43,165 bases of DNA from Flavobacteriales bacterium (GTDB lineage: Bacteria > Bacteroidota > Bacteroidia > Flavobacteriales > CAJXXR01), in assembly GCA_025210805.1 (NCBI GenBank), contig JAOAQX010000025.1:1-43165 (forward strand). Direction: 5' to 3'. This document shows, piece by piece, positions 2,005-12,568 of this stretch. Position 1 is the stretch's first letter, and each line of letters begins with the position of its first letter. The notes beneath the pieces were generated by a model. The model was given only the letters and a program-made list of their open reading frames with translations. It was not told the origin of the DNA and ran no database searches. The position numbers were made by a program, and so were the translations under genes.

Positions 2005-3492
2005 TTATTTTTTACCAAACCAATCACTAAAGGATGTCTTATAACCTATTTGAAATTGAGTAAAAGAGGCTTCTCCTTCATTGAAGTTCTTGAACCATAC
2101 GAATCGCACGTATAACTTTTCATTGGTATTTGGACGTTTGTAATAGGCTTCAAATTGTGGTATAAGATATGCACGAAGATTCGTGTTTTCAATCTCAATG
2201 TCTTTTAATTTAGATAACTCACTTGGTTCTGAAAGACTTTGAAACCAAAGATTGGTACCTAAATCTACTCCTATATGATCTTTGTATATCGGGATTTTAT
2301 ACATTAAATCAAGACCAAATGTAAGTATGTCCACAGTGTATTTCTCTTCCTTATATAAAATATCTGAAAATCCATACTTCCCTATTAAAGATAATTCAAG
2401 AGACTGACTATAGTAATAACTTGTCAGAATATTCAGTTTTAAACCTAAGTCCATTCTTGAAATCAAATTTAAATTAGACCGATCAATGCTTATGCTTTTA
2501 TCTCCTTTTTCATTTGTTTCTATTATAGTTGAATCAATAAGCAGTGTTTGATTCTCATTCTCAAACTTAGAGAATCTTAAAGAAGGTTCTAGATAATGTA
2601 GCCAAATAAGTCTTGAATTTCTCATTGGGACGGTATTAGAGAAGAAATTAAATTTTATTTCTGATTGTATTAGACCTTTTGGTTGGTGTTCTCTTAAGGA
2701 TATAGGTTCAGTATAGATTCTAACGTTCAGTAAGGAATTTAGGCTAGTACCAAATGCAACGGGTTTGACCATTGTATCTTTATCTAATCTCACAATTCCG
2801 TTATTAGGCACGGTATGAACGCCTAATGTTTTTGTATATTTTAGACAATCATTTAGGGATATATAAGGAGCAATAGAATCTGTATCAGATGTTTTGGTTT
2901 CGAATAATCTATCATTTAAATGTCTTCGGTATTCTATAATTGAGATGGGCATTTGACTTCTAAATTCTTTATTATTCTCTGTGAGAATGGTTAGGTTGAA
3001 AGCCATTCCATTCTTAATTTCAAACTCTATACTTTTAATTTTTATTTTGGTTTGAGTTTTTTTGAACCTTCTACATACAGTAAACTGGTCATATTTTAGA
3101 GAGTTATACCATTTCTTAAATCGTAATTTTTTAATATGATCACAAGATTTATCAAGCATTTCATTACAGTTTGAATCGTAGTAATCAAATTCGTATAAAT
3201 AGACAGAATCATTCAATGAGAACTTACCAACTTGCTCATGTATAATAGTATCTTTCGAAGCTATTTGACGGAGTGAATTGTTGATTTTTTCAAGCTCTGT
3301 TTTTATCTTATTTACAGTTTCTTGAAGTTTTGCAGTGTCGATAGGTGAGTTGTCTATTTGTTCTTGGGATTCTTTATAGGAATCCGATGAACTCTTAGCG
3401 TCAGGTGTTTTTGTTGTTGATATTTCTCCACCTAGTGCAAAAGCTAAGTTTGAAATCAATAAAAAGAGTGCTAATAATTTAAAAAAATTCAT
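2005..3492 (-). CDS. Probable outer-membrane beta-barrel protein with coiled coil
   Basis: 495 residues. Residues 1-20 are a signal peptide (FKLLALFLLISNLAFAL). Residues 30-50 are Ser/Lys-rich and residues about 53-80 (KLQETVNKIKTELEKINNS) are a predicted coiled coil. The middle contains three Cys around residues 108-140 (SNC, KSC, TVC). From about residue 270 to the end the sequence alternates polar and aromatic/hydrophobic residues, with short turns and final strands FTQFQIGYKTSF, as in outer-membrane barrels. The chain ends DWFGKK rather than with a terminal aromatic, so barrel status is inferred. It is transcribed alone, toward repeat B, and has no visible tie to the two-component system upstream. 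No named family recognised. Confidence 0.65.
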   Translation of the reverse strand: MNFFKLLALFLLISNLAFALGGEISTTKTPDAKSSSDSYKESQEQIDNSPIDTAKLQETVNKIKTELEKINNSLRQIASKDTIIHEQVGKFSLNDSVYLYEFDYYDSNCNEMLDKSCDHIKKLRFKKWYNSLKYDQFTVCRRFKKTQTKIKIKSIEFEIKNGMAFNLTILTENNKEFRSQMPISIIEYRRHLNDRLFETKTSDTDSIAPYISLNDCLKYTKTLGVHTVPNNGIVRLDKDTMVKPVAFGTSLNSLLNVRIYTEPISLREHQPKGLIQSEIKFNFFSNTVPMRNSRLIWLHYLEPSLRFSKFENENQTLLIDSTIIETNEKGDKSISIDRSNLNLISRMDLGLKLNILTSYYYSQSLELSLIGKYGFSDILYKEEKYTVDILTFGLDLMYKIPIYKDHIGVDLGTNLWFQSLSEPSELSKLKDIEIENTNLRAYLIPQFEAYYKRPNTNEKLYVRFVWFKNFNEGEASFTQFQIGYKTSFSDWFGKK

Positions 3493-3799: not shown

Positions 3800-5923
3800 T
3801 TAAGCCAAAGGTATTTCTATACGAATAAAAATTCCCTTTTCGACTTTTGGAAACTTGATACTACCTTTCATTATTTCCACTCGGTTGTAAATATTGAACA
3901 ATCCGTTTTTCTTATCATCTTCATGAAACCCAATTCCGTTATCCTTATACTCGATTGTAATTAAATCATCTGTTGCAATAATGTTAAAAATGGTCTGATC
4001 CGCTTTTGAGTGCTTCAGATTATTTGATAATAATTCTTGCACAATTCTTACAATATGAATTTTTGATTTTTTATCTAATTTTATTTCTTCAGGAGAAATT
4101 TTATAAGTCAAACCTTGAACTTCAAAAGTGGTTAGAATATCTTCTAAATCATCGGTGAGATTTCCATATTTTTCAGGCTTATAGTCTAAGTCATGAGAGA
4201 GTTTTGCGACATATCTACTTGTAAGCAACACCTTTTTTCCTAACTGAGGATTATGTTTTTCAATATCAAAAGCTAATCCCAATAATTTTCCCGCTACCTG
4301 GTCATGAAGTTCGAGTCCGATTTCTTTTTGTATAATTTCTGTTTGGTGAATTTGATCTTCTTTGATTCTTATTTTTTTTCTTTGAAATAATAAAATACCA
4401 GCAGTAAAAAATAAAAGCAACAAAAGAATGGCAGAGAATAGTATTATTTTTTGCTCATCTTGAAGTGCGTTTAATTCCAACTTTTGGTTTTGATGTTGGT
4501 TTTGAAGTTTTAAAATTTGATTTTCTTTTTGATAAACCTCGACTTCAGCAAATGCTTGGTTCAGACTATTTGAATGATAGGCTGAGTCTCTTTTGTTTTT
4601 TAAATCATAAAGGGAGGATTGATAATAAAAAGCAACTTTGTAATTATTCTTCTTTTCATAATATTCAGACAAGGCTTGGAAGTAATCTAATTTTCTTAAA
4701 GGGGCTAGATTATTAACATCCTTCATGTTCTTATCTAGCCATTTGAATTGTTCTTCTACGTTCTTCCAGTCATTTTTTGATAGGTATAATCTAAATAGTG
4801 CTATATTCACTTGTTCCAAATTTTTTTGAGAAGCTATTTTATCAAAAACTATTTGAGCCTCTTTGAAATCTTTAAGTGACAGATCAAACTGTTTATTTTT
4901 AAGGTATAGAAAACCTCTATTTAGCTTCAATCTTGCGATTCTGCTTTTATCACTTTTATTCTCCTCACTCAATGAAAATGCGATATCTGCCATTTGATAC
5001 GCCAGACTATCCATACCTAATTCATTATAGGATAAGAGTAGTAAGGAATAAAGCAAAATAGGATCATTCGGATTGTGTTCTAGACTTCTTTTAGCATATT
5101 CAATTGCTTTATAAAAATTATTTTTCTTTGCATAAAGAGAACCTATATTACCGTACAATCTACTAATTGATTTTTGCCCTGCTGAATTCTCACTTAGAAA
5201 CAAACCCTCTTTATAGTAATGAATTGCAGAGTCAAGCTGACCAATCAATTCATAAGCTAAGCCCAAATTATTAAGTGAATTTAAATAAGAATCTATTTTA
5301 ACAACATCCTTTGCTATATAATAACGTTTTCTAAAATTATAAATTCGTTTAAAATAGGGAATTGCTTTTTTAAACTGCCCAGAGTTAGCAAATAGTACAG
5401 CAATATCGGTTAGAGTAGCAATTTTTAAACTTTGATGCTTGGTATTATTAGAATCCAACAAATCACATAAACCTTCTAATAAAGGAATTGAATCTATACG
5501 CTCTTTTAGTGTTTTATTCGGCATTGTGATAATTGAGGTCCGCGCTAAGACTTCATGATATATTGGTTCAAAATTGTTGTTTTTAGCGTATTCAATACTA
5601 TAATTATACAAACTATCTGCGGCAGAGTATTTAGCAAAGTCCCTGAACAAACTCGCCTTTCCTTGAGCTAAAGTAATGTGAAACTTAGTAGCTGAGTCTA
5701 TAGAATTCAAAAGATGCTGAGCCCTATCAAAAAAATATAGTGCACTATCTCCATTTGAGTAATAGTACTCTACACCAAGGTTGTAGGTATGCTTAGCCCT
5801 ATCGTAGTCATTGGTTGCTTGAGATATCTGGTTTCGTATATTAGTCTTTATACTATCCAAAGAATTTTTTCCTGTTACGAAAAAAGTAACTAAGAAGGCG
5901 ATGTGAAAAAATATAATTCTCAT
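3800..5923 (-). CDS. TPR-containing sensor histidine kinase (HisKA_3 type)
   Basis: 707 residues. The N-terminus is a signal/anchor (residues 1-18), placing residues ~20-490 outside the cytoplasm. That part is a chain of TPR-like helical repeats, for example NNLGLAYELIGQLDSAIHYY near 218-237 and GNIGSLYAKKNNFYKAIEYA near 258-277. A coiled coil (about 462-490) leads into one strong membrane helix (493-513). The cytoplasmic part has the dimerisation/phosphoacceptor motif GLELHDQVAGKLLG with His540, an N-box ELLSNNLKHS (630-639) and an ATP-lid motif DNGIGF (661-666). The E-x-H-D form is that of kinases paired with NarL-type regulators, and such a regulator lies directly upstream (5994-6662). TPR sensor kinases of this build are common in Bacteroidetes; the ligand is unknown. 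ATG at 5923 chosen for the signal sequence. Confidence 0.92.
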   Translation of the reverse strand: MRIIFFHIAFLVTFFVTGKNSLDSIKTNIRNQISQATNDYDRAKHTYNLGVEYYYSNGDSALYFFDRAQHLLNSIDSATKFHITLAQGKASLFRDFAKYSAADSLYNYSIEYAKNNNFEPIYHEVLARTSIITMPNKTLKERIDSIPLLEGLCDLLDSNNTKHQSLKIATLTDIAVLFANSGQFKKAIPYFKRIYNFRKRYYIAKDVVKIDSYLNSLNNLGLAYELIGQLDSAIHYYKEGLFLSENSAGQKSISRLYGNIGSLYAKKNNFYKAIEYAKRSLEHNPNDPILLYSLLLLSYNELGMDSLAYQMADIAFSLSEENKSDKSRIARLKLNRGFLYLKNKQFDLSLKDFKEAQIVFDKIASQKNLEQVNIALFRLYLSKNDWKNVEEQFKWLDKNMKDVNNLAPLRKLDYFQALSEYYEKKNNYKVAFYYQSSLYDLKNKRDSAYHSNSLNQAFAEVEVYQKENQILKLQNQHQNQKLELNALQDEQKIILFSAILLLLLFFTAGILLFQRKKIRIKEDQIHQTEIIQKEIGLELHDQVAGKLLGLAFDIEKHNPQLGKKVLLTSRYVAKLSHDLDYKPEKYGNLTDDLEDILTTFEVQGLTYKISPEEIKLDKKSKIHIVRIVQELLSNNLKHSKADQTIFNIIATDDLITIEYKDNGIGFHEDDKKNGLFNIYNRVEIMKGSIKFPKVEKGIFIRIEIPLA

Positions 5924-5993: not shown

Positions 5994-6662
5994 TTATAGA
6001 TTGATATTTTTTGCGAAATAAAAAAGTTCTTGTCTATTATTCAACTTTAATTTTTTTCGGATATTTCTTATATGGGTATTTATAGTATCTATGCTAATAG
6101 ACATTTTATCCGCAAGAATAACTGTGTCCAAGGATTCTAAGCCACTCATTATATCTAATAATTGAATCTCTCTAGAGGATAATAAATCTAACAGAACAAT
6201 AGAGTTTCCAAACTGAGAGTCAACTTCTGATAAACTAATATCGTTCAAGAACCTAAAAAAATCTTTCTTCTCAATATTCTTTTTAAGTACAGTTTCTAAA
6301 GCTTCGCTAAATTCATCAATTCCTACACTCTTTGGTAAATACAAATCAAAACCAGACTTGATGCATTTTTTAATAATATTTTTGCCTATAAAAGAAGAAT
6401 AGGCTATCACTTTACAATTGGGATGGATTTTTTTTATCTTTGTTGCTAAATCAAAACCCATATGGTCAATAAATTCACCTTGAGATAATTGTAAATCACA
6501 AATTACTAAATCAAAATTGACTTGGTGCAATTTGGAAATCATCGACCTTTTACATTTTGCTGCAAAATAATTAAAGCTCTCCTCCAAAGCTGATTTTAAT
6601 CTGTATTCAACACCAATACGGATATCTTCGTGATCATCCACGACAAGAATATTAAGCATCAT
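5994..6662 (-). CDS. Response regulator, NarL/LuxR type
   Basis: 222 residues in two domains. The receiver domain (about 3-128) has the acidic pair Asp9-Asp10 (VVDDHED), phosphoacceptor Asp56 (DLVICDLQ), Ser89/90 at the Thr/Ser switch position and Lys111 (LPKSVG). A LuxR-type helix-turn-helix follows at 161-216 (LSSREIQLLDIMSGL, then IDTINTHIRNIRKKL). It should be phosphorylated by the kinase at 3800-5923 and bind DNA. The gene starts 140 bp from the divergently transcribed CsgG-like operon, so that shared intergenic region is the obvious target; this is inference from position. The start MMLNILVVDD is standard; either Met could be used. Confidence 0.93.
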   Translation of the reverse strand: MMLNILVVDDHEDIRIGVEYRLKSALEESFNYFAAKCKRSMISKLHQVNFDLVICDLQLSQGEFIDHMGFDLATKIKKIHPNCKVIAYSSFIGKNIIKKCIKSGFDLYLPKSVGIDEFSEALETVLKKNIEKKDFFRFLNDISLSEVDSQFGNSIVLLDLLSSREIQLLDIMSGLESLDTVILADKMSISIDTINTHIRNIRKKLKLNNRQELFYFAKNINL

Positions 6663-6720
6663 CTAATTCTTTACTCACTCCCCACTATTAATAACTATAT
6701 GAAACAATAGTACTAAAATA

Positions 6721-6755
6721 TTTGTCAAATACCACAAAATGTTAGAATACATTTT
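6721..6755 (+). promoter_or_regulatory. Possible promoter of the CsgG-like operon
   Basis: TTTG at 6721-6724 and TACATTTT at 6748-6755 resemble the Bacteroidetes -33 (TTTG) and -7 (TAnnTTTG) boxes, separated by 23 nt; the -7 box has one mismatch. It lies in the divergent gap between the regulator and the operon. Confidence 0.3.
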
Positions 6756-6801
6756 TTCGGTTTCTTGCATTTTTGTAAACAAAACAAAACAATTATCAAA
6801 A

Positions 6802-7683
6802 ATGAAAAAAATTCTATTAGTATTAGGTGTCATATTGATTAGTCTTTCCTCAGATGCACAGACAGTCAAAAAGAAAATTGGAATAATTTCTTTCAAGTAC
6901 GTTAACGCAGCAGTAAATGTAAAAGATGTTTCAGCGATTCGTGAAAAAGTAACTAATTCATTCGTTAAAACCAAGAGATTTGATGTTCTAGACTTGACCA
7001 CAATGGATAATGTTGAGCAAGAAAAGATTAGGCAAATGGGCGCTGGTATCGACTTGAAAACTAAGGCAGATAAATCCAATAATAAGCTCATGGGAGCAAA
7101 TTATATTATTATGGGAAAGATAGTTTCTGCTGAAGCTACCAAAATGAGTTCGAAAGACTCAAAGGGTAATGAAAAAATTACTTATAAAGCCAAGTTAGCT
7201 GTTAGTTTAAAAGCGATAGATGTCGCAACAGGTAAGATTATCGCTTCAGAAACATTAGCGCCAAAAGCAGGCTCTGGTCTTTTAGGTGCAATCGGATTTG
7301 GACACGGAACAGAAAGAGAAGCAATAAAGAAAGCTATTGATGACATCGAGTCTGAAATAGACAAGTTTGTAACGAAGTATTTCCCAGCTGAATTTGAAAT
7401 TGCCGAAATTATTGAGAGCAAACGTGGAAAAGCGAGAGCCATATTAATCGTTGGGGGTAGTGAATTTGGATTGCAAAAAGGAGATAAACTATATGTTTAT
7501 GAATTAGTACAAACTCAAATAAGAGGGAAAAAACTTACAAGAAAAAAGAAGATATCGGAAGTAAAAATATCTAGTGTTGAAGATGAGAACTTCTCAAATT
7601 GTAAGGTTACCAAAGGTGGTGATGCTCTTCTCACTAAATTTGAAAAAGGGGCAAAACTGTTAGCCATTACTAATACCAAATGA
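6802..7683 (+). CDS. CsgG-like exported protein, first gene of operon
   Basis: 293 residues from the ATG at 6802, chosen because it starts a clean signal peptide (KKILLVLGVILISLSSDAQ); the open frame begins 63 bp earlier. The mature protein opens IGIISFKY, then AIREKVTNSF and FDVLDLTTMDNV, LMGANYIIMGKIVSAE and a basic/acidic strand region KLAVSLKAIDVATGKI. This is the order seen in CsgG/HfaB-family proteins, which form outer-membrane secretion channels for curli in proteobacteria. Unlike classical CsgG there is no lipobox Cys after the signal. The last ~80 residues (from FEIAEIIESKRGKA) look like an added small beta domain. It overlaps the next gene by 4 bp. Channel function is inferred from family. 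Confidence 0.75.
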   Translation: MKKILLVLGVILISLSSDAQTVKKKIGIISFKYVNAAVNVKDVSAIREKVTNSFVKTKRFDVLDLTTMDNVEQEKIRQMGAGIDLKTKADKSNNKLMGANYIIMGKIVSAEATKMSSKDSKGNEKITYKAKLAVSLKAIDVATGKIIASETLAPKAGSGLLGAIGFGHGTEREAIKKAIDDIESEIDKFVTKYFPAEFEIAEIIESKRGKARAILIVGGSEFGLQKGDKLYVYELVQTQIRGKKLTRKKKISEVKISSVEDENFSNCKVTKGGDALLTKFEKGAKLLAITNTK

Positions 7684-8159
7684 TGAAGCAATTCATTCTC
7701 ATTATATGTGTTTTTTGTTTTGGAGTGCTGTCATCTTGCACTCCAAAACTTACAACTCAACCTACATACACAGCACAAGTAAATTTAGTTTCCGAGTCTG
7801 GAAATATAATAAAGCTAAAAAGTAAAGTATCGGGAAAAGAAAAAAAAACATTGGAGAAACAAGCCATAAACAATATTCTCAATACTCTTATTTTTCAAGG
7901 CTTTGCGAATGCTGAAAGTTACTATTTGCGAAATCCCTTGATACATAACGAACAATTGTCTAGAGAAAAGAATCATTCTTACTGGAAAATTTTCTTCGAT
8001 CAAAACAGGTACAAACAACATGTTACTAGTCAAACGTATACTTATCTTGGAAAGATAAAAGGAATTCATTCAGGAGAAGTTTTTATGACAATAAACCTTA
8101 AATCCCTCAAAAAGAATCTAAGGCAAAATGGGATTATTAAATCATTAGGATACCGATGA
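7680..8159 (+). CDS. Small lipoprotein, second gene of CsgG-like operon
   Basis: 159 residues. It has a type II signal peptide with lipobox LSSC (Cys20), so it is lipid-anchored. The body contains KKTLEKQAINNILNTLIFQG, a PLI/HNEQL stretch and a Tyr/Trp/Phe-rich region (SYWKIFFDQNRY), then TYTYLGKIKGIHSGEVFMTI near the end. The layout recalls small Bacteroidetes lipoproteins found beside CsgG-like genes, but I cannot name a family. Its start overlaps the stop of the upstream gene (ATGATG at 7680) and its end overlaps the next start by 4 bp, so translation is coupled. A role as a partner or pilotin of the CsgG-like protein is inference. Confidence 0.75.
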   Translation: MMKQFILIICVFCFGVLSSCTPKLTTQPTYTAQVNLVSESGNIIKLKSKVSGKEKKTLEKQAINNILNTLIFQGFANAESYYLRNPLIHNEQLSREKNHSYWKIFFDQNRYKQHVTSQTYTYLGKIKGIHSGEVFMTINLKSLKKNLRQNGIIKSLGYR

Positions 8160-9112
8160 AACAATACAAGCTAAAGCTCACCATAATATTAACTCTTATT
8201 TATCTGATAGGATTTGCTCAGTCTCAAGGGGAAATCAATAAACCTAAATTCCTCATTATGCCAGGGGGAAGTGGAAAGAATTTATTGGAAGAAATGAAAA
8301 AGCCTATTAATAAAATCTTATACTCTACTCTCTCAGAATTTTTCATTAGCAACTATCAAATAACACCTGAAAGTTATGCAACCAACACTCAAGAATTCAA
8401 TAAAAACAATCTTACCAGATCCACTGACGATGTTCTTAATATAGAATACACGGATAGAAATAATAATTTGAGTGAATTAATTCTCAATAATTCTCGAGCG
8501 GATTTTTATATTAAGTACGAAGTAATGGAGATTAGAAGCTCTAATCGGATAAAAGTTCATTTATCACTTACTGGAATATCAATAAGAGGTAGAAGTGAAA
8601 TAGCTTCAGTTTCTACAAGCGAATATGATGCTGCAGAACAGTTTTATTCACCAGGAATTGAGATTAGTCTAGCTAAATATCAATTAGAAGAACTAATTGA
8701 AAAAAACGATCGGTCATTTGTAGAGCAACTATTTCATTATTTTGACACAGAGCAGAAAGAAGGAACTCCAATACCTGTTAGTGTACATTTTACCAAAGAT
8801 GCGGAATATAATGGATATTCAACTGTAGATGATGAAGGAAATACAATTACTGATATTTTGGATGAATTCTTCGAGGTAGTTGCCAAAAAAGGAATTTATT
8901 CAGATCCTTCCACTTCTTCAAGAGCAATTCTTTTTAGCAATGTAAATCTTCCCCTCCGTAAACCAAATGGAATGCCTTTTAAGAGAAGTAGAGATTTTAT
9001 TAGACCACTTAGAAAGATGCTAAACAAAAAACTGAAATGCGGAGGTTGTGTCACCGTCAAAACAGAAAACAATTCTCAAATTGGAATTATAATCAGCAAA
9101 TCGAAAAATTAG
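8156..9112 (+). CDS. Exported protein, third gene of CsgG-like operon (DUF6175-like?)
   Basis: 318 residues with an N-terminal signal peptide (LKLTIILTLIYLIGFAQS). The mature part begins KPKFLIMPGGSGKN, a P-x-hydrophobic strand typical of proteins that partner CsgG-type genes, then SRADFYIKYEVMEI, a charged helical stretch and a C-terminal half with PIPVSVHF and EFFEVVAKKGIYSDP. A CGGC motif sits near residue 296. From memory it resembles the DUF6175 group of Bacteroidetes envelope proteins; this needs a profile search. It overlaps the lipoprotein gene by 4 bp and the following gene begins 1 bp after its stop, so all belong to one transcript. Confidence 0.7.
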   Translation: MKQYKLKLTIILTLIYLIGFAQSQGEINKPKFLIMPGGSGKNLLEEMKKPINKILYSTLSEFFISNYQITPESYATNTQEFNKNNLTRSTDDVLNIEYTDRNNNLSELILNNSRADFYIKYEVMEIRSSNRIKVHLSLTGISIRGRSEIASVSTSEYDAAEQFYSPGIEISLAKYQLEELIEKNDRSFVEQLFHYFDTEQKEGTPIPVSVHFTKDAEYNGYSTVDDEGNTITDILDEFFEVVAKKGIYSDPSTSSRAILFSNVNLPLRKPNGMPFKRSRDFIRPLRKMLNKKLKCGGCVTVKTENNSQIGIIISKSKN

Positions 9113-9113
9113 T

Positions 9114-10214
9114 ATGAAAACTATTCTTGCTTATCTATTATTAATTTTTTTCGTTTCAGAGATTTCCGTAGCACAGCAATCTTTTCATGTATATATTGAG
9201 GAGGGAGAAACGAAAATTGATGAAACCTCCAAAATGAAACTTAAAGGAAAAATTCAAAATTATTTTTTTAATAACGGGATTCTTACTTCGGGTACTGAAA
9301 ATATGTTTATCGCGTACTGCAATCTAGAGGTATATGATGAAAAAAATGTTGACATTGGATTAGAAACTATCAATATGTTTGAAGGAATGGTTCAATTAAC
9401 ATTAACCAATATCAAGGACCAAATAATATTTGGAAGTAAATCATTTAATTTCAAGCACACAAGCAGTTCTAGAAAAAGAAGTATTTCGCAAGGAATAAAC
9501 AGCCTAAAATTGGATCGTGAGGACGAGGGATTTTTAGACATGGTTCTTTCAAATATTCACACTTACTACAATAAAAACTGCGACAATATTATTGATCAAG
9601 CTTTTACGCATAAAAATGTTCGAGAATATGAAAAAGCTCTATCTATAGCAAAGTCTATCCCATTTGAATCGAATTGCTCTTATCAACGTAATGTATTAAT
9701 AGAAGAGATTGAAAGAGAGTATAGATTAAGTTGTAACGATAAGTATGATTTTGCACAATCCTTATTCTATCAGAAAAAGTACTTTCCTGCACTCAGCGTT
9801 TTATCAACAATAAACAATCGTACAGCCTGTACGTATAAAAAGAATGTCTTGAGGGACCAAATACACAGAAAAATAGAAAGTGAAGATCTTAAAAAATGGA
9901 ATCTAAAGGTCTTACAGATTTTGGAAAAGTCATACCTAAAGAAATTAGAATTAAAATACTCTAAAGAAGTAGCTTTAGCTAAACTTGAAAACAATAAAAG
10001 AGCAATGGACCTAGAATTTAAAGCATATTTGATTGATTCCTATATTGATTTAGAAGAAAACAAAAAAGAAATGTTGAGAGATGAGTACAACTACATTTTA
10101 TCCTCTCAAAAAATAGATGCGATGAAATCGATTTTAATGGAAAAGAACAAAAAAGTGAGTCATCAATTTCACGTTACAAAAAACTATCATGTATTTAAAA
10201 CCGTTCAATTTTAA
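9114..10214 (+). CDS. Exported TPR-like protein with coiled-coil tail, fourth gene of operon
   Basis: 366 residues. It has a signal peptide (ILAYLLLIFFVSEISVAQQ). Residues ~20-150 form a mixed domain that includes FNNGILTSGTENMF. Two related ~40-residue helical units follow, one around KALSIAKSIPFESNCSYQRN and one around ALSVLSTINNRTACTYKKN; each holds one Cys-(S/T)-Tyr and ends in a charged helix, as in degenerate TPRs. From about residue 255 the sequence is Lys/Glu-rich and probably coiled coil (KKLELKYSKEVALAKLEN). No catalytic motif seen. It is the last gene of the operon; a hairpin (10292-10312) and repeat D with its terminator follow. A periplasmic adaptor role is plausible but not shown. 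Confidence 0.7.
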   Translation: MKTILAYLLLIFFVSEISVAQQSFHVYIEEGETKIDETSKMKLKGKIQNYFFNNGILTSGTENMFIAYCNLEVYDEKNVDIGLETINMFEGMVQLTLTNIKDQIIFGSKSFNFKHTSSSRKRSISQGINSLKLDREDEGFLDMVLSNIHTYYNKNCDNIIDQAFTHKNVREYEKALSIAKSIPFESNCSYQRNVLIEEIEREYRLSCNDKYDFAQSLFYQKKYFPALSVLSTINNRTACTYKKNVLRDQIHRKIESEDLKKWNLKVLQILEKSYLKKLELKYSKEVALAKLENNKRAMDLEFKAYLIDSYIDLEENKKEMLRDEYNYILSSQKIDAMKSILMEKNKKVSHQFHVTKNYHVFKTVQF

Positions 10215-10291
10215 AATGTGATAAATCGAGTACCTCATAAAATGTGTAAGTTATCAAAGTAAGAGTGGAACATGTTTAACTCTGGCTTTTG

Positions 10292-10312
10292 GTTTGCCCA
10301 GCATGGGTAAAC
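10292..10312 (+). other. Small hairpin after the CsgG-like operon
   Basis: GTTTGCCCA (10292-10300) pairs with TGGGTAAAC (10304-10312) apart from one G-T wobble, leaving a 3-nt loop. It lies directly before repeat copy D. There is no T-run, so it is not a terminator by itself; it may be the outer edge of the repeat. Confidence 0.45.
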
Positions 10313-10524
10313 TCCCAACTCCCTCCCACCAACGAAAGCACTCAGCCTTGCCACTGCCAATTTTTAATTGGTAGCCATATTGAGAATAAAAAACCACAAA
10401 ACACTCAATGATAGGTCATTGAGTGTTTTGTTTTTCTTGTAAAATAGGTTGATTTGGCTTGGTTATCCGTGTGTCCACACCTTGTCCCGAGCAGCGGGAA
10501 ATTAGAAATTGGCGGTAGCGGGGG
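10313..10524 (+). repeat. Interspersed repeat copy D (most complete)
   Basis: The left block contains CTCCCACCAACGAAAGCACT, CCTTGCCACTGCC and the CCAATT-TTT-AATTGG palindrome (10357-10371). A terminator hairpin follows (10396-10431), then the right arm with GTAAAATAGGTTGATTTGG, and the end AAATTGGCGGTAGCGGGG (10506-10523). That end is an imperfect reverse complement of the left CCTTGCCACTGCCAATTT. It ends within 2 bp of the stop codon of the PIN-domain gene. It accounts for the whole gap 10215-10525 apart from the hairpin and ~75 unremarkable bases at 10215-10291. Confidence 0.8.
10396..10436. terminator. Bidirectional intrinsic terminator inside repeat D
   Basis: A perfect 15-bp stem (10396-10410 with 10417-10431, ACAAAACACTCAATG / CATTGAGTGTTTTGT) with a 6-nt loop. 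T-rich on plus (TTTTGTTTTTC) and on minus (after GTGGTTTTTTATTC), so it can end both the CsgG-like operon and the convergent PIN gene. Confidence 0.8.
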
Positions 10525-10525
10525 G

Positions 10526-12568
10526 TTATTCTAATTCTTTTAGTTCATCTGGTATTTTTAATTCAGATTTATAGCTTTTTATATTTCCGTAGTTCCAATA
10601 TTTATCTTTAATCAAATAAAGGACAATTGCCATAAATGCAAATGATAAAATTGATAATAAATTACCAATAATAAAGTCAGATTGCCAACTTTCAAATCTC
10701 AAAATTGCATTATCTATATTCCAGTCAGACATATAAAGGAGGTATGTTCCAATACCAATAAAGATAGCCAAACTAATAAAAAATAAAAACCAACTCTTAT
10801 TTCTCCATTTGCTAACTTGTTCTTTTATCCAAGCTTCTCTTTTGATTCGTCTTATTTCATTTTTCTCTTTTATTAAGTCACTTTTTAATTGTTTAGTTTC
10901 TATTTTTTTTTGATTAATAATTACATCAATGTCTTTGCTTTTCTCGTCATATTCTTTTTTGCTTTTTTCAAGACTATCAGTTTTAATGGATAAATTATTG
11001 AATATCTTTTCTAAATTTTTTATTCTAGTATCCTCAATCTCTTTTTGTTTTTTAGCTTCATCTTCTAATCGTTTAATGAACTCTTCTTTATTCTGTTCAG
11101 CCAGTAAATTTAGAGACTCAATGTCTTTAAGCTGTTTATTAGTTATTCGTGTTGCTACTCGAACAATATCTTCATCACTTATTTTCTCTTCAGCATATTT
11201 GTGAATATTATCATCTAATTCCCTTAGTATTTTTGCTTTAGGAAGGTTTTGGCTAAGTGTAAGAGCAATTGTAGAAGTCAATCCAATTTCAGCTAAATCT
11301 TCTCCATTTATTGAATTAGTTATCTGTGGATTACTAAGCCAGAGAATGTTTAACAAATCATCTGCTTTAATCGTTTCTGGCTGAAATCTTTCTCTTAAAT
11401 GATAGTTGTCACCATGAATAGTTGCAGTATTATTTACAAACCAAGCTTTTACTTTATCAAAGTCACGAATACGCTTGTTTTTTCTTTCTTTTCTTACATA
11501 TAGAACAGCCATTGCATCGTGTAAAGCAGCTATTTTCGTTGACCTGTAGTTAAGTAATTTTTTATAATCATCAGTAAATTTAGCTTCGTTCTTAAGTTTA
11601 TCAGTATATGGGATTGTTAAAACCCCAAATTCTTTTAATGAGTCTTCAATATTATCAGCTATTCTTTCGAGATCAGTTTTAGACAAATTCCTTCTTTCAC
11701 AAGCGTTGTAAACATCTTCTGTATTTACTTTTTTTTGAAGAAAAGATTTGTCAAAAAATTCTGCCTTTTTTTCAAGTAAATTAGTTGTTTCATTTATAGT
11801 ATCTATAAGTACGTTTACTTTATATCCTTGTTGTTTTGCTATTTTTAATAAAGTTCGACAAGTATGTGTTGATTCAGGTGTGTTTAAGTCAAGTAAGCCT
11901 ACAATAAAATTCGTATCTAACAAAAGTTTTACTTCGCTTTTAGTCTTATCGGGTGTATATTCGATATAACCTGAAATAATTGAACCTAAATAAATGTTTT
12001 TAATTTTTTCATATACTTGAGGAATACGCTTAAAAAACTCAATAAACTGAGCTTCTGCATTATAATCTTCTCCATTGTGATATTGATTATGAGAAATGTA
12101 TTTAGAAAGATTGAATTTGTTTTTTTCTATGAATTTAAAAATGGATTCACTATTCTTAATATCGAGTTCAGATGTTTTACAAAAATCTTCAAACAGGTTT
12201 TCTAGTTCTTCAATATCTCTTTCTTGTTCTTCTAAAATTATATCAAATTCGTCGAAAGTATATTCATTTATGCTGAAAGATAAATCTTTATGTAATACAA
12301 ATCTTGTTACTTCATCATCGTTAACTTCTAAGCAAATTGCATTTAAAATTTTCTTTAGAGCTGGGACAGGGAAATCTAGTCCGTATAATTCGTCTGCAAT
12401 TGTTTTTATTTCAAGGATGCTTTCTCCTTTATGTATTCCTTTTGAATTCATATAAGACAATGCTCTTTTTACTAATGGTATAAATATATCAATTGGACCT
12501 TTGGCTAGAGTTCCTGTATTTCTAATATGTGCTAAAAGACTATATGTAGTTGCTCTTTCTTTATTCAT
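10526..12568 (-). CDS. PIN-domain protein with coiled coil and two C-terminal membrane helices
   Basis: 680 residues. Residues 1-200 are a helical N-terminal domain (starting NKERATTYSLLAHIRNTGT). A PIN-like nuclease core spans about 213-390: LLLDTNFIVGLLD with Asp218 and Asn220, INETTN with Glu260, ALHDAMAVLYV with Asp351 and KAWFVNNTATI. The last carries Asn where many PIN domains have a fourth acid, so the metal site is probably complete but slightly variant. Residues ~490-580 are a long coiled coil, and two membrane helices follow (593-613 and 632-653) with a short cytoplasmic tail. PIN domains are metal-dependent RNases in toxins and RNA processing. No antitoxin lies beside it. A membrane-tethered RNase, perhaps in stress or phage response, is inference. 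Confidence 0.8.
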   Translation of the reverse strand: MNKERATTYSLLAHIRNTGTLAKGPIDIFIPLVKRALSYMNSKGIHKGESILEIKTIADELYGLDFPVPALKKILNAICLEVNDDEVTRFVLHKDLSFSINEYTFDEFDIILEEQERDIEELENLFEDFCKTSELDIKNSESIFKFIEKNKFNLSKYISHNQYHNGEDYNAEAQFIEFFKRIPQVYEKIKNIYLGSIISGYIEYTPDKTKSEVKLLLDTNFIVGLLDLNTPESTHTCRTLLKIAKQQGYKVNVLIDTINETTNLLEKKAEFFDKSFLQKKVNTEDVYNACERRNLSKTDLERIADNIEDSLKEFGVLTIPYTDKLKNEAKFTDDYKKLLNYRSTKIAALHDAMAVLYVRKERKNKRIRDFDKVKAWFVNNTATIHGDNYHLRERFQPETIKADDLLNILWLSNPQITNSINGEDLAEIGLTSTIALTLSQNLPKAKILRELDDNIHKYAEEKISDEDIVRVATRITNKQLKDIESLNLLAEQNKEEFIKRLEDEAKKQKEIEDTRIKNLEKIFNNLSIKTDSLEKSKKEYDEKSKDIDVIINQKKIETKQLKSDLIKEKNEIRRIKREAWIKEQVSKWRNKSWFLFFISLAIFIGIGTYLLYMSDWNIDNAILRFESWQSDFIIGNLLSILSFAFMAIVLYLIKDKYWNYGNIKSYKSELKIPDELKELE

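Follow-up and report, generated by a model that had tools for sequence, protein, structure and literature searches.

What is the function of four tightly packed genes for exported proteins (6802–10214, forward strand) in a Flavobacteriales genome, and do they form a curli-type export system under the control of the two-component pair beside them? The genes lie on a 43-kb contig of a 3.1 Mb Bacteroidota genome; this contig, analysed over its whole length, is referred to as the window. We label the four genes P1 to P4 in the order of transcription, and P0 an additional gene found upstream in relatives. Comparison with other loci shows that a conserved cell-envelope operon of Bacteroidota, (P0)-P1-P2-P3-P4, is present at 6802–10214 in divergent form, and that P1–P4 constitute one conserved envelope module.

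P1 (6802–7683), P2 (7680–8159), P3 (8156–9112) and P4 (9114–10214) are co-directional. The P1-P2 and P2-P3 junctions are 4-bp ATGA overlaps and the P3-P4 gap is 1 bp; open reading frames, strands and coordinates agree with the packing described in the original prediction. Signal peptides are present at the N-termini of all four products, judged by inspection; these, like the lipobox and the promoter described below, are by-eye calls made with no predictor. P1 is apparently non-lipidated and has a predicted CsgG/LpoB-fold domain (residues ~21–195) followed by a FlgT_C-like beta domain (~195–293; Pfam, model and Foldseek). P2 is a small lipoprotein with the lipobox LSSC and Cys20, as had been proposed (alignments A1 and A7), and matches no Pfam family. 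P3 is an exported DUF6175 protein with a predicted N-terminal domain (27–200) of CsgG/GNA1162/PelC fold. P4 is exported and consists of an N-terminal domain common to LPP20-type proteins and a TPR-like C-terminal region, with cysteines at positions 156, 188, 207 and 239.

Conservation was tested on 71 loci retrieved solely for their similarity to DUF6175, with profiles of P1, P2 and P4 that were derived from other loci; 61 of the 71 have enough flanking sequence to score. The order P1-P2-P3-P4 is complete in 57 of the 61, with P1 present in 60, P2 in 57 and P4 in 61, and the median intergenic gaps are 5, 11 and 7 bp. Because this order recurs in independently fetched loci, the operon is more than a chance arrangement, and the co-occurrence on which the original prediction was staked is seen. 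Carriers belong to many Bacteroidota families and range from Flavobacterium, Epilithonimonas, Sphingobacterium and Cyclobacterium to Bacteroides, Barnesiella and Prevotella; those within the same taxonomic order include Flavobacterium, Epilithonimonas and Kaistella. DUF6175 itself was not mentioned in the open-access literature searched, the coverage of which lacks most subscription journals.

A search with the DUF6175 model (PF19672) found 11 carriers in 247 genomes of the phylum and 16 in 396 genomes of the order. Around these carriers the order P2-P3-P4 is kept except in a group of fusion loci described below, in L079, at a contig end, and in L080. P1 lies directly upstream in about half of them; in the remainder it is replaced by an unrelated protein, mostly of ~400 residues, often accompanied by a second copy of P2. 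In the 396 order genomes, P1-family matches better than 1e-60 occur in 8 genomes, and DUF6175 adjoins in all 8. As the P1 profile was built from these very loci, the lack of strong matches elsewhere is the informative part. In the genome studied here P1 is the only CsgG-family match. An initial scan of genome contigs with the window P1 gave no match.

The loci in which P1 is replaced (L014, L068–L071 and L075) encode an unrelated protein of ~400–440 residues, with a 'YRRSSL'-like motif in several, and a tandem P2 pair is frequent. Elsewhere P1 is duplicated in or beside the operon: L016:3659–7837, where three upstream open reading frames match the P1 profile; L073:5453–6415 and 7123–7953; and L078:6917–7783 and 10233–11060.

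How is P1 built? It matches Pfam CsgG with 36.1 bits (cut-off 20.8, E 5e-9) and, marginally, Pfam LpoB with 22.6 bits (cut-off 22.3, E 1e-4). Across 50 P1 relatives, the CsgG and LpoB models each match 49, FlgT_C matches 7 and FlgT_M 4. The AlphaFold model consists of a CsgG-fold domain and then a beta domain (predicted local distance difference test, pLDDT, of 76 from ten sequences). P1 is thus predicted to carry a CsgG-fold domain, and both the CsgG likeness proposed earlier and the corresponding fold are borne out by the profile match and the model. Over both domains the top Foldseek match is FlgT (1.9e-15 and 1.3e-14); CsgG comes next, at 5.7e-8 over ~200 columns. With VIA, P1 and FlgT align with Z 12 and a root-mean-square deviation (rmsd) of ~10 Å, the large deviation arising because the domains are placed differently. 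Domain 1 of P1 taken separately has its highest VIA Z with PelC rings (12.7, rmsd 2.5, 123 residues), tied with several others. PelC is a lipoprotein that works with the PelB channel; P1 differs from it in having an extra C-terminal domain and no lipobox. P1 shares with FlgT (Vibrio H-ring; PDB 3w1e and 8z5n) a CsgG-like middle domain and then a C-terminal beta domain, in the same succession, but it lacks the FlgT N-terminal domain: the CsgG-like domain of P1 comes straight after the signal peptide, and the alignment begins at FlgT residue 92 or later. The closest working parallel is the Vibrio H-ring, whose proximal, medial and distal parts are made by FlgT, FlgO and FlgP (PMC7693769). P1 is instead partnered by P2–P4, and the flagellar rod family Flg_bb_rod has no match above cut-off in this genome, with flagellated control genomes positive.

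The Pfam CsgG match raises the question whether P1 could be a genuine secretion pore of the CsgG type that exports a substrate across the outer membrane with P2–P4 as accessory proteins. In curli CsgG, itself a lipoprotein, nine subunits build a 36-strand barrel that has a Tyr/Asn/Phe constriction (PMC7304575). The signal of P1 ends in ...SSDAQ with no lipobox cysteine, and 67 relatives are also without an evident lipidation signal (by eye and by motif). The constriction-loop motif of true Bacteroidota CsgG, F.D.TG.[YF], is found in none of these 67. The stretches corresponding to the barrel hairpins, counted from anchors, are 39 and 27 residues long in P1, compared with 44 and 41 in true CsgG (n=4); in a joint mafft alignment, P1 was wrongly placed relative to CsgG in its C-terminal part. 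Five P1 relatives have hairpins of 31–36 and 20–30 residues, and the medians over 76 P1-family sequences are 36 and 18, with a few long outliers. The best genome match to CsgE scores below cut-off and is a fragment interrupted by three stops; CsgF and CsgA/B were not searched genome-wide.

The pore does have points in its favour. Pfam CsgG is above cut-off in P1 and matches nearly all of its relatives, CsgG is among the top structural matches, the first P1 hairpin falls just 5 residues short of true CsgG, and a minority of relatives have hairpins of CsgG length, so the case is not uniform. Against these stand the missing lipobox and constriction motif, the short median hairpins of the family, and the failure to find CsgE. 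A curli-type pore was set aside on these grounds, and we consider a CsgG-type exporter highly unlikely. P1 also differs from CsgG in its extra C-terminal domain. Judged from hairpin lengths and sequence motifs, an assembly located beneath the outer membrane is a likelier reading of the P1 set than a curli-type exporter. The original proposal of a secretion or envelope module therefore survives in its envelope half; the CsgG-type exporter is not supported, FlgT being the better full-length match.

The LpoB match bears on a different possibility, that P1–P4 regulate peptidoglycan synthesis and that P1 acts as an LpoB-like activator from the outer-membrane side. LpoB, the activator of PBP1B, is a lipoprotein. 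The LpoB model matches as many relatives as CsgG does, the window P1 lies just over its cut-off, and the extra beta domain of P1 matches MreC (VIA Z 9.2, rmsd 2.5, 70 residues). P1, however, is non-lipidated and has an additional C-terminal domain, it scores 16.4 bits against the LpoB equivalog TIGR02722, far below the cut-off of 110.55, and a cell-wall family is absent among the 25 of 80 upstream-neighbour families shown. A role as a regulator of cell-wall synthesis is accordingly improbable.

The other three products were compared with known families in the same way. P3 matches DUF6175 (PF19672) with 76.9 bits (cut-off 23), confirming its earlier assignment. The Foldseek matches of its N-terminal domain (model pLDDT 78) are GNA1162 (1.5e-4), FlgT (3.2e-4) and CsgG (5.1e-4). 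With VIA this domain reaches Z 8–10 against HpaA, CsgG, PelC and LptE, which is modestly above the Z 7–8 reachable by unrelated models. Profile comparison of the N-terminal domains of P1 and P3 by hhalign gives 64–86%, a similarity that supports a true relationship, and P3 is predicted to carry a CsgG/TolB-N-type domain. In hhalign controls, domain pairs with no expected relation mostly score below 9%, and the C-terminal part of P3 compared with a fusion part that contains it scores 14–25%.

For P4, the N-terminal domain scores 31–34% with that of P1, and its counterpart in LPP20 proteins scores 66–71%; as judged by these profiles, the P4 domain may be a distant CsgG-fold relative, a weaker candidate than P3. 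The window P4 itself has no family match, and a TPR model matches the C-terminal part in 9 of 15 relatives; the TPR likeness suggested originally is thus seen in the family and not in this member. Cys156, Cys188 and Cys207 are invariant and Cys239 is nearly so (alignment A11). Such conservation of cysteines in the TPR-like region of an exported protein points to disulfides formed in the periplasm.

P2 was considered as an LPP20/FlgP homologue, which neither Pfam nor hhalign supports: none of 13 P2 members has a Pfam match to LPP20, and hhalign gives ~1% against the LPP20 domains of loci L018–L023. Searches of PDB sequences with the P2, P3 and P4 profiles returned chance-level matches only. Neisseria and others carry a gene triad encoding CsgG, DUF4810 and the GNA1162 (DUF799) lipoprotein. 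The operon resembles it in joining two CsgG-fold proteins with a small lipoprotein, with GNA1162 as the top Foldseek match of P3; it differs in that P2 and P3 have no Pfam match to DUF4810 or DUF799 and in having a TPR-like fourth gene and, often, P0.

In L018–L023, from a distant Bacteroidota lineage, P2 and DUF6175 are encoded as a single protein. Their fusion is good evidence that P2 and P3 work jointly. By hhalign, P2 matches the fusion N-terminus at 98% and the P3 N-terminal domain matches the fusion C-terminal part at 99%. The gene that follows the fusion encodes a protein that starts with an LPP20 domain and whose C-terminal domain matches the P4 N-terminal domain (97%).

P0 is an exported protein of ~196 residues, helical by eye, with no convincing Pfam family. 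It precedes P1 in 43 of the 61 loci at a median gap of 3 bp (L114:413–1003, L072:6307–6885 and 40-odd further loci). This proximity, together with the high VIA score of P1 domain 1 with PelC rings, would fit a system in which P1–P4 handle P0, a PelC-like periplasmic ring passing it to the surface via a channel encoded elsewhere. Yet the window has no P0 in any of the six frames, nor was it found in the genome (a search run with no positive control), the other four genes being kept all the same, and no channel gene is linked to the operon. We regard P0 handling as an unlikely role for the set.

These comparisons lead us to propose that P1–P4 form a periplasmic assembly associated with the outer membrane and built of CsgG-fold subunits, FlgT- or PelC-like, that serves as a scaffold and not as a pore; this proposal is in our judgement about evenly balanced between right and wrong. 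P1–P4 would come together in the periplasm as a complex, possibly a ring, that lies against the inner face of the outer membrane. Where lipidated, P2 would anchor the complex; its oligomeric body would consist of P1, with the CsgG-fold and FlgT_C-like domains, and of P3; and a TPR-like arm contributed by P4 and stabilised by disulfides would let partners dock. The complex would be a scaffold or adaptor that does not span the membrane, comparable to FlgT within the flagellar H-ring or to PelC beside an exporter of the outer membrane.

Several observations weigh against this proposal. At the sequence level the P1 matches to FlgT and CsgG are tied, and the structural match to FlgT has the ~10 Å deviation given above. 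The P1 and P3 models are of middling quality, from 10 and 16 sequences, respectively. The CsgG-type fold also occurs in the non-ring proteins TolB and LptE, so the fold is no proof of a ring. The flagellar parallel is incomplete, as P2 has no link to LPP20/FlgP (hhalign 1%). In addition, many P2 relatives from Bacteroides and Prevotella are not lipidated; P2 lipidation was scored by alignment, regular-expression scoring being unreliable for this protein. A broader and rather doubtful extension is that the operon encodes an undescribed, widespread Bacteroidota envelope machine, in which several proteins of CsgG/TolB-N fold co-assemble as a FlgT-like ring in the absence of flagella, with P0 as a client or surface component where present.

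Is the operon controlled by the two-component system beside it? The NarL-type response regulator (5994–6662, reverse strand) has the Pfam families Response_reg and GerE, with receiver residues Asp56 and Lys111 and a GerE helix-turn-helix. The sensor histidine kinase (3800–5923, reverse strand) begins 70 bp past the regulator stop and consists of an exported TPR domain, one transmembrane segment (~493–513), a HisKA_3-like H-box with His540, read by eye, and HATPase_c; TPR repeats and HATPase_c are Pfam matches. The regulator is separated from P1 by 139 bp (6663–6801), in agreement with the divergent arrangement and the distance of about 140 bp noted originally. A by-eye pattern in this region gives a putative Bacteroidota-type promoter, TTTG at 6721–6724, a 23 bp spacing and TACATTTT at 6748–6755; no convincing palindromic regulator site was seen in 6663–6801.

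A TPR-type sensor adjoins the operon in three further divergent or P0-less loci: L017 (divergent; kinase and NarL-type regulator), L076 (divergent; TPR-LuxR) and L077 (co-directional; HisKA_2 kinase and LytTR regulator). With a background rate of such sensors of ~1.4% of genes, finding them in 3 of 10 loci, the window not counted, corresponds to P 3e-4 for one flank, in a subset chosen post hoc. Of the 53 upstream neighbours in the larger set, 1 matches a histidine-kinase family, which is the background level. These neighbours were scored on 25 of 80 families shown, which may hide a few regulators; a profile search for the regulator and kinase found none directly upstream. Pooling gives 4 of 70 (P 0.02). 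An early signal of 4 in 11, which had suggested that the two-component system is conserved together with the module, is gone in the larger set, and the originally proposed sensing of the module by the kinase is not upheld as a conserved link. The pair could still be a dedicated envelope-sensing controller in this lineage, which concerns regulation only and is compatible with the scaffold proposal. The shared divergent region and the three adjoining sensors speak for it; the different types of those sensors, the background-level frequency in the larger set and the after-the-fact choice of the ten loci speak against it. We consider a dedicated controller conceivable, if somewhat less than probable. 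In this genome, then, the operon lacks P0, and the TPR-kinase/NarL pair from which it diverges may regulate it; such control would be a local trait of this lineage and is not a conserved property.

Two neighbouring genes lie outside these units. The gene at 10526–12568 (reverse strand) is convergent with the operon and encodes a 680-residue protein with no Pfam family above cut-off; its 'LLLDTNFIVGLLDLN' stretch looks PIN-like by eye, and membrane segments lie towards the C-terminus. Downstream of the kinase, 2005–3492 (reverse strand) encodes an exported 495-residue protein.

The annotation 'CsgG family' should not be taken here to mean curli secretion. If the ring or scaffold proposal is true, the CsgG/FlgT fold would serve envelope structure beyond curli and flagella, in carriers that span bacteria important in the gut (Bacteroides) and in the environment (Flavobacterium).

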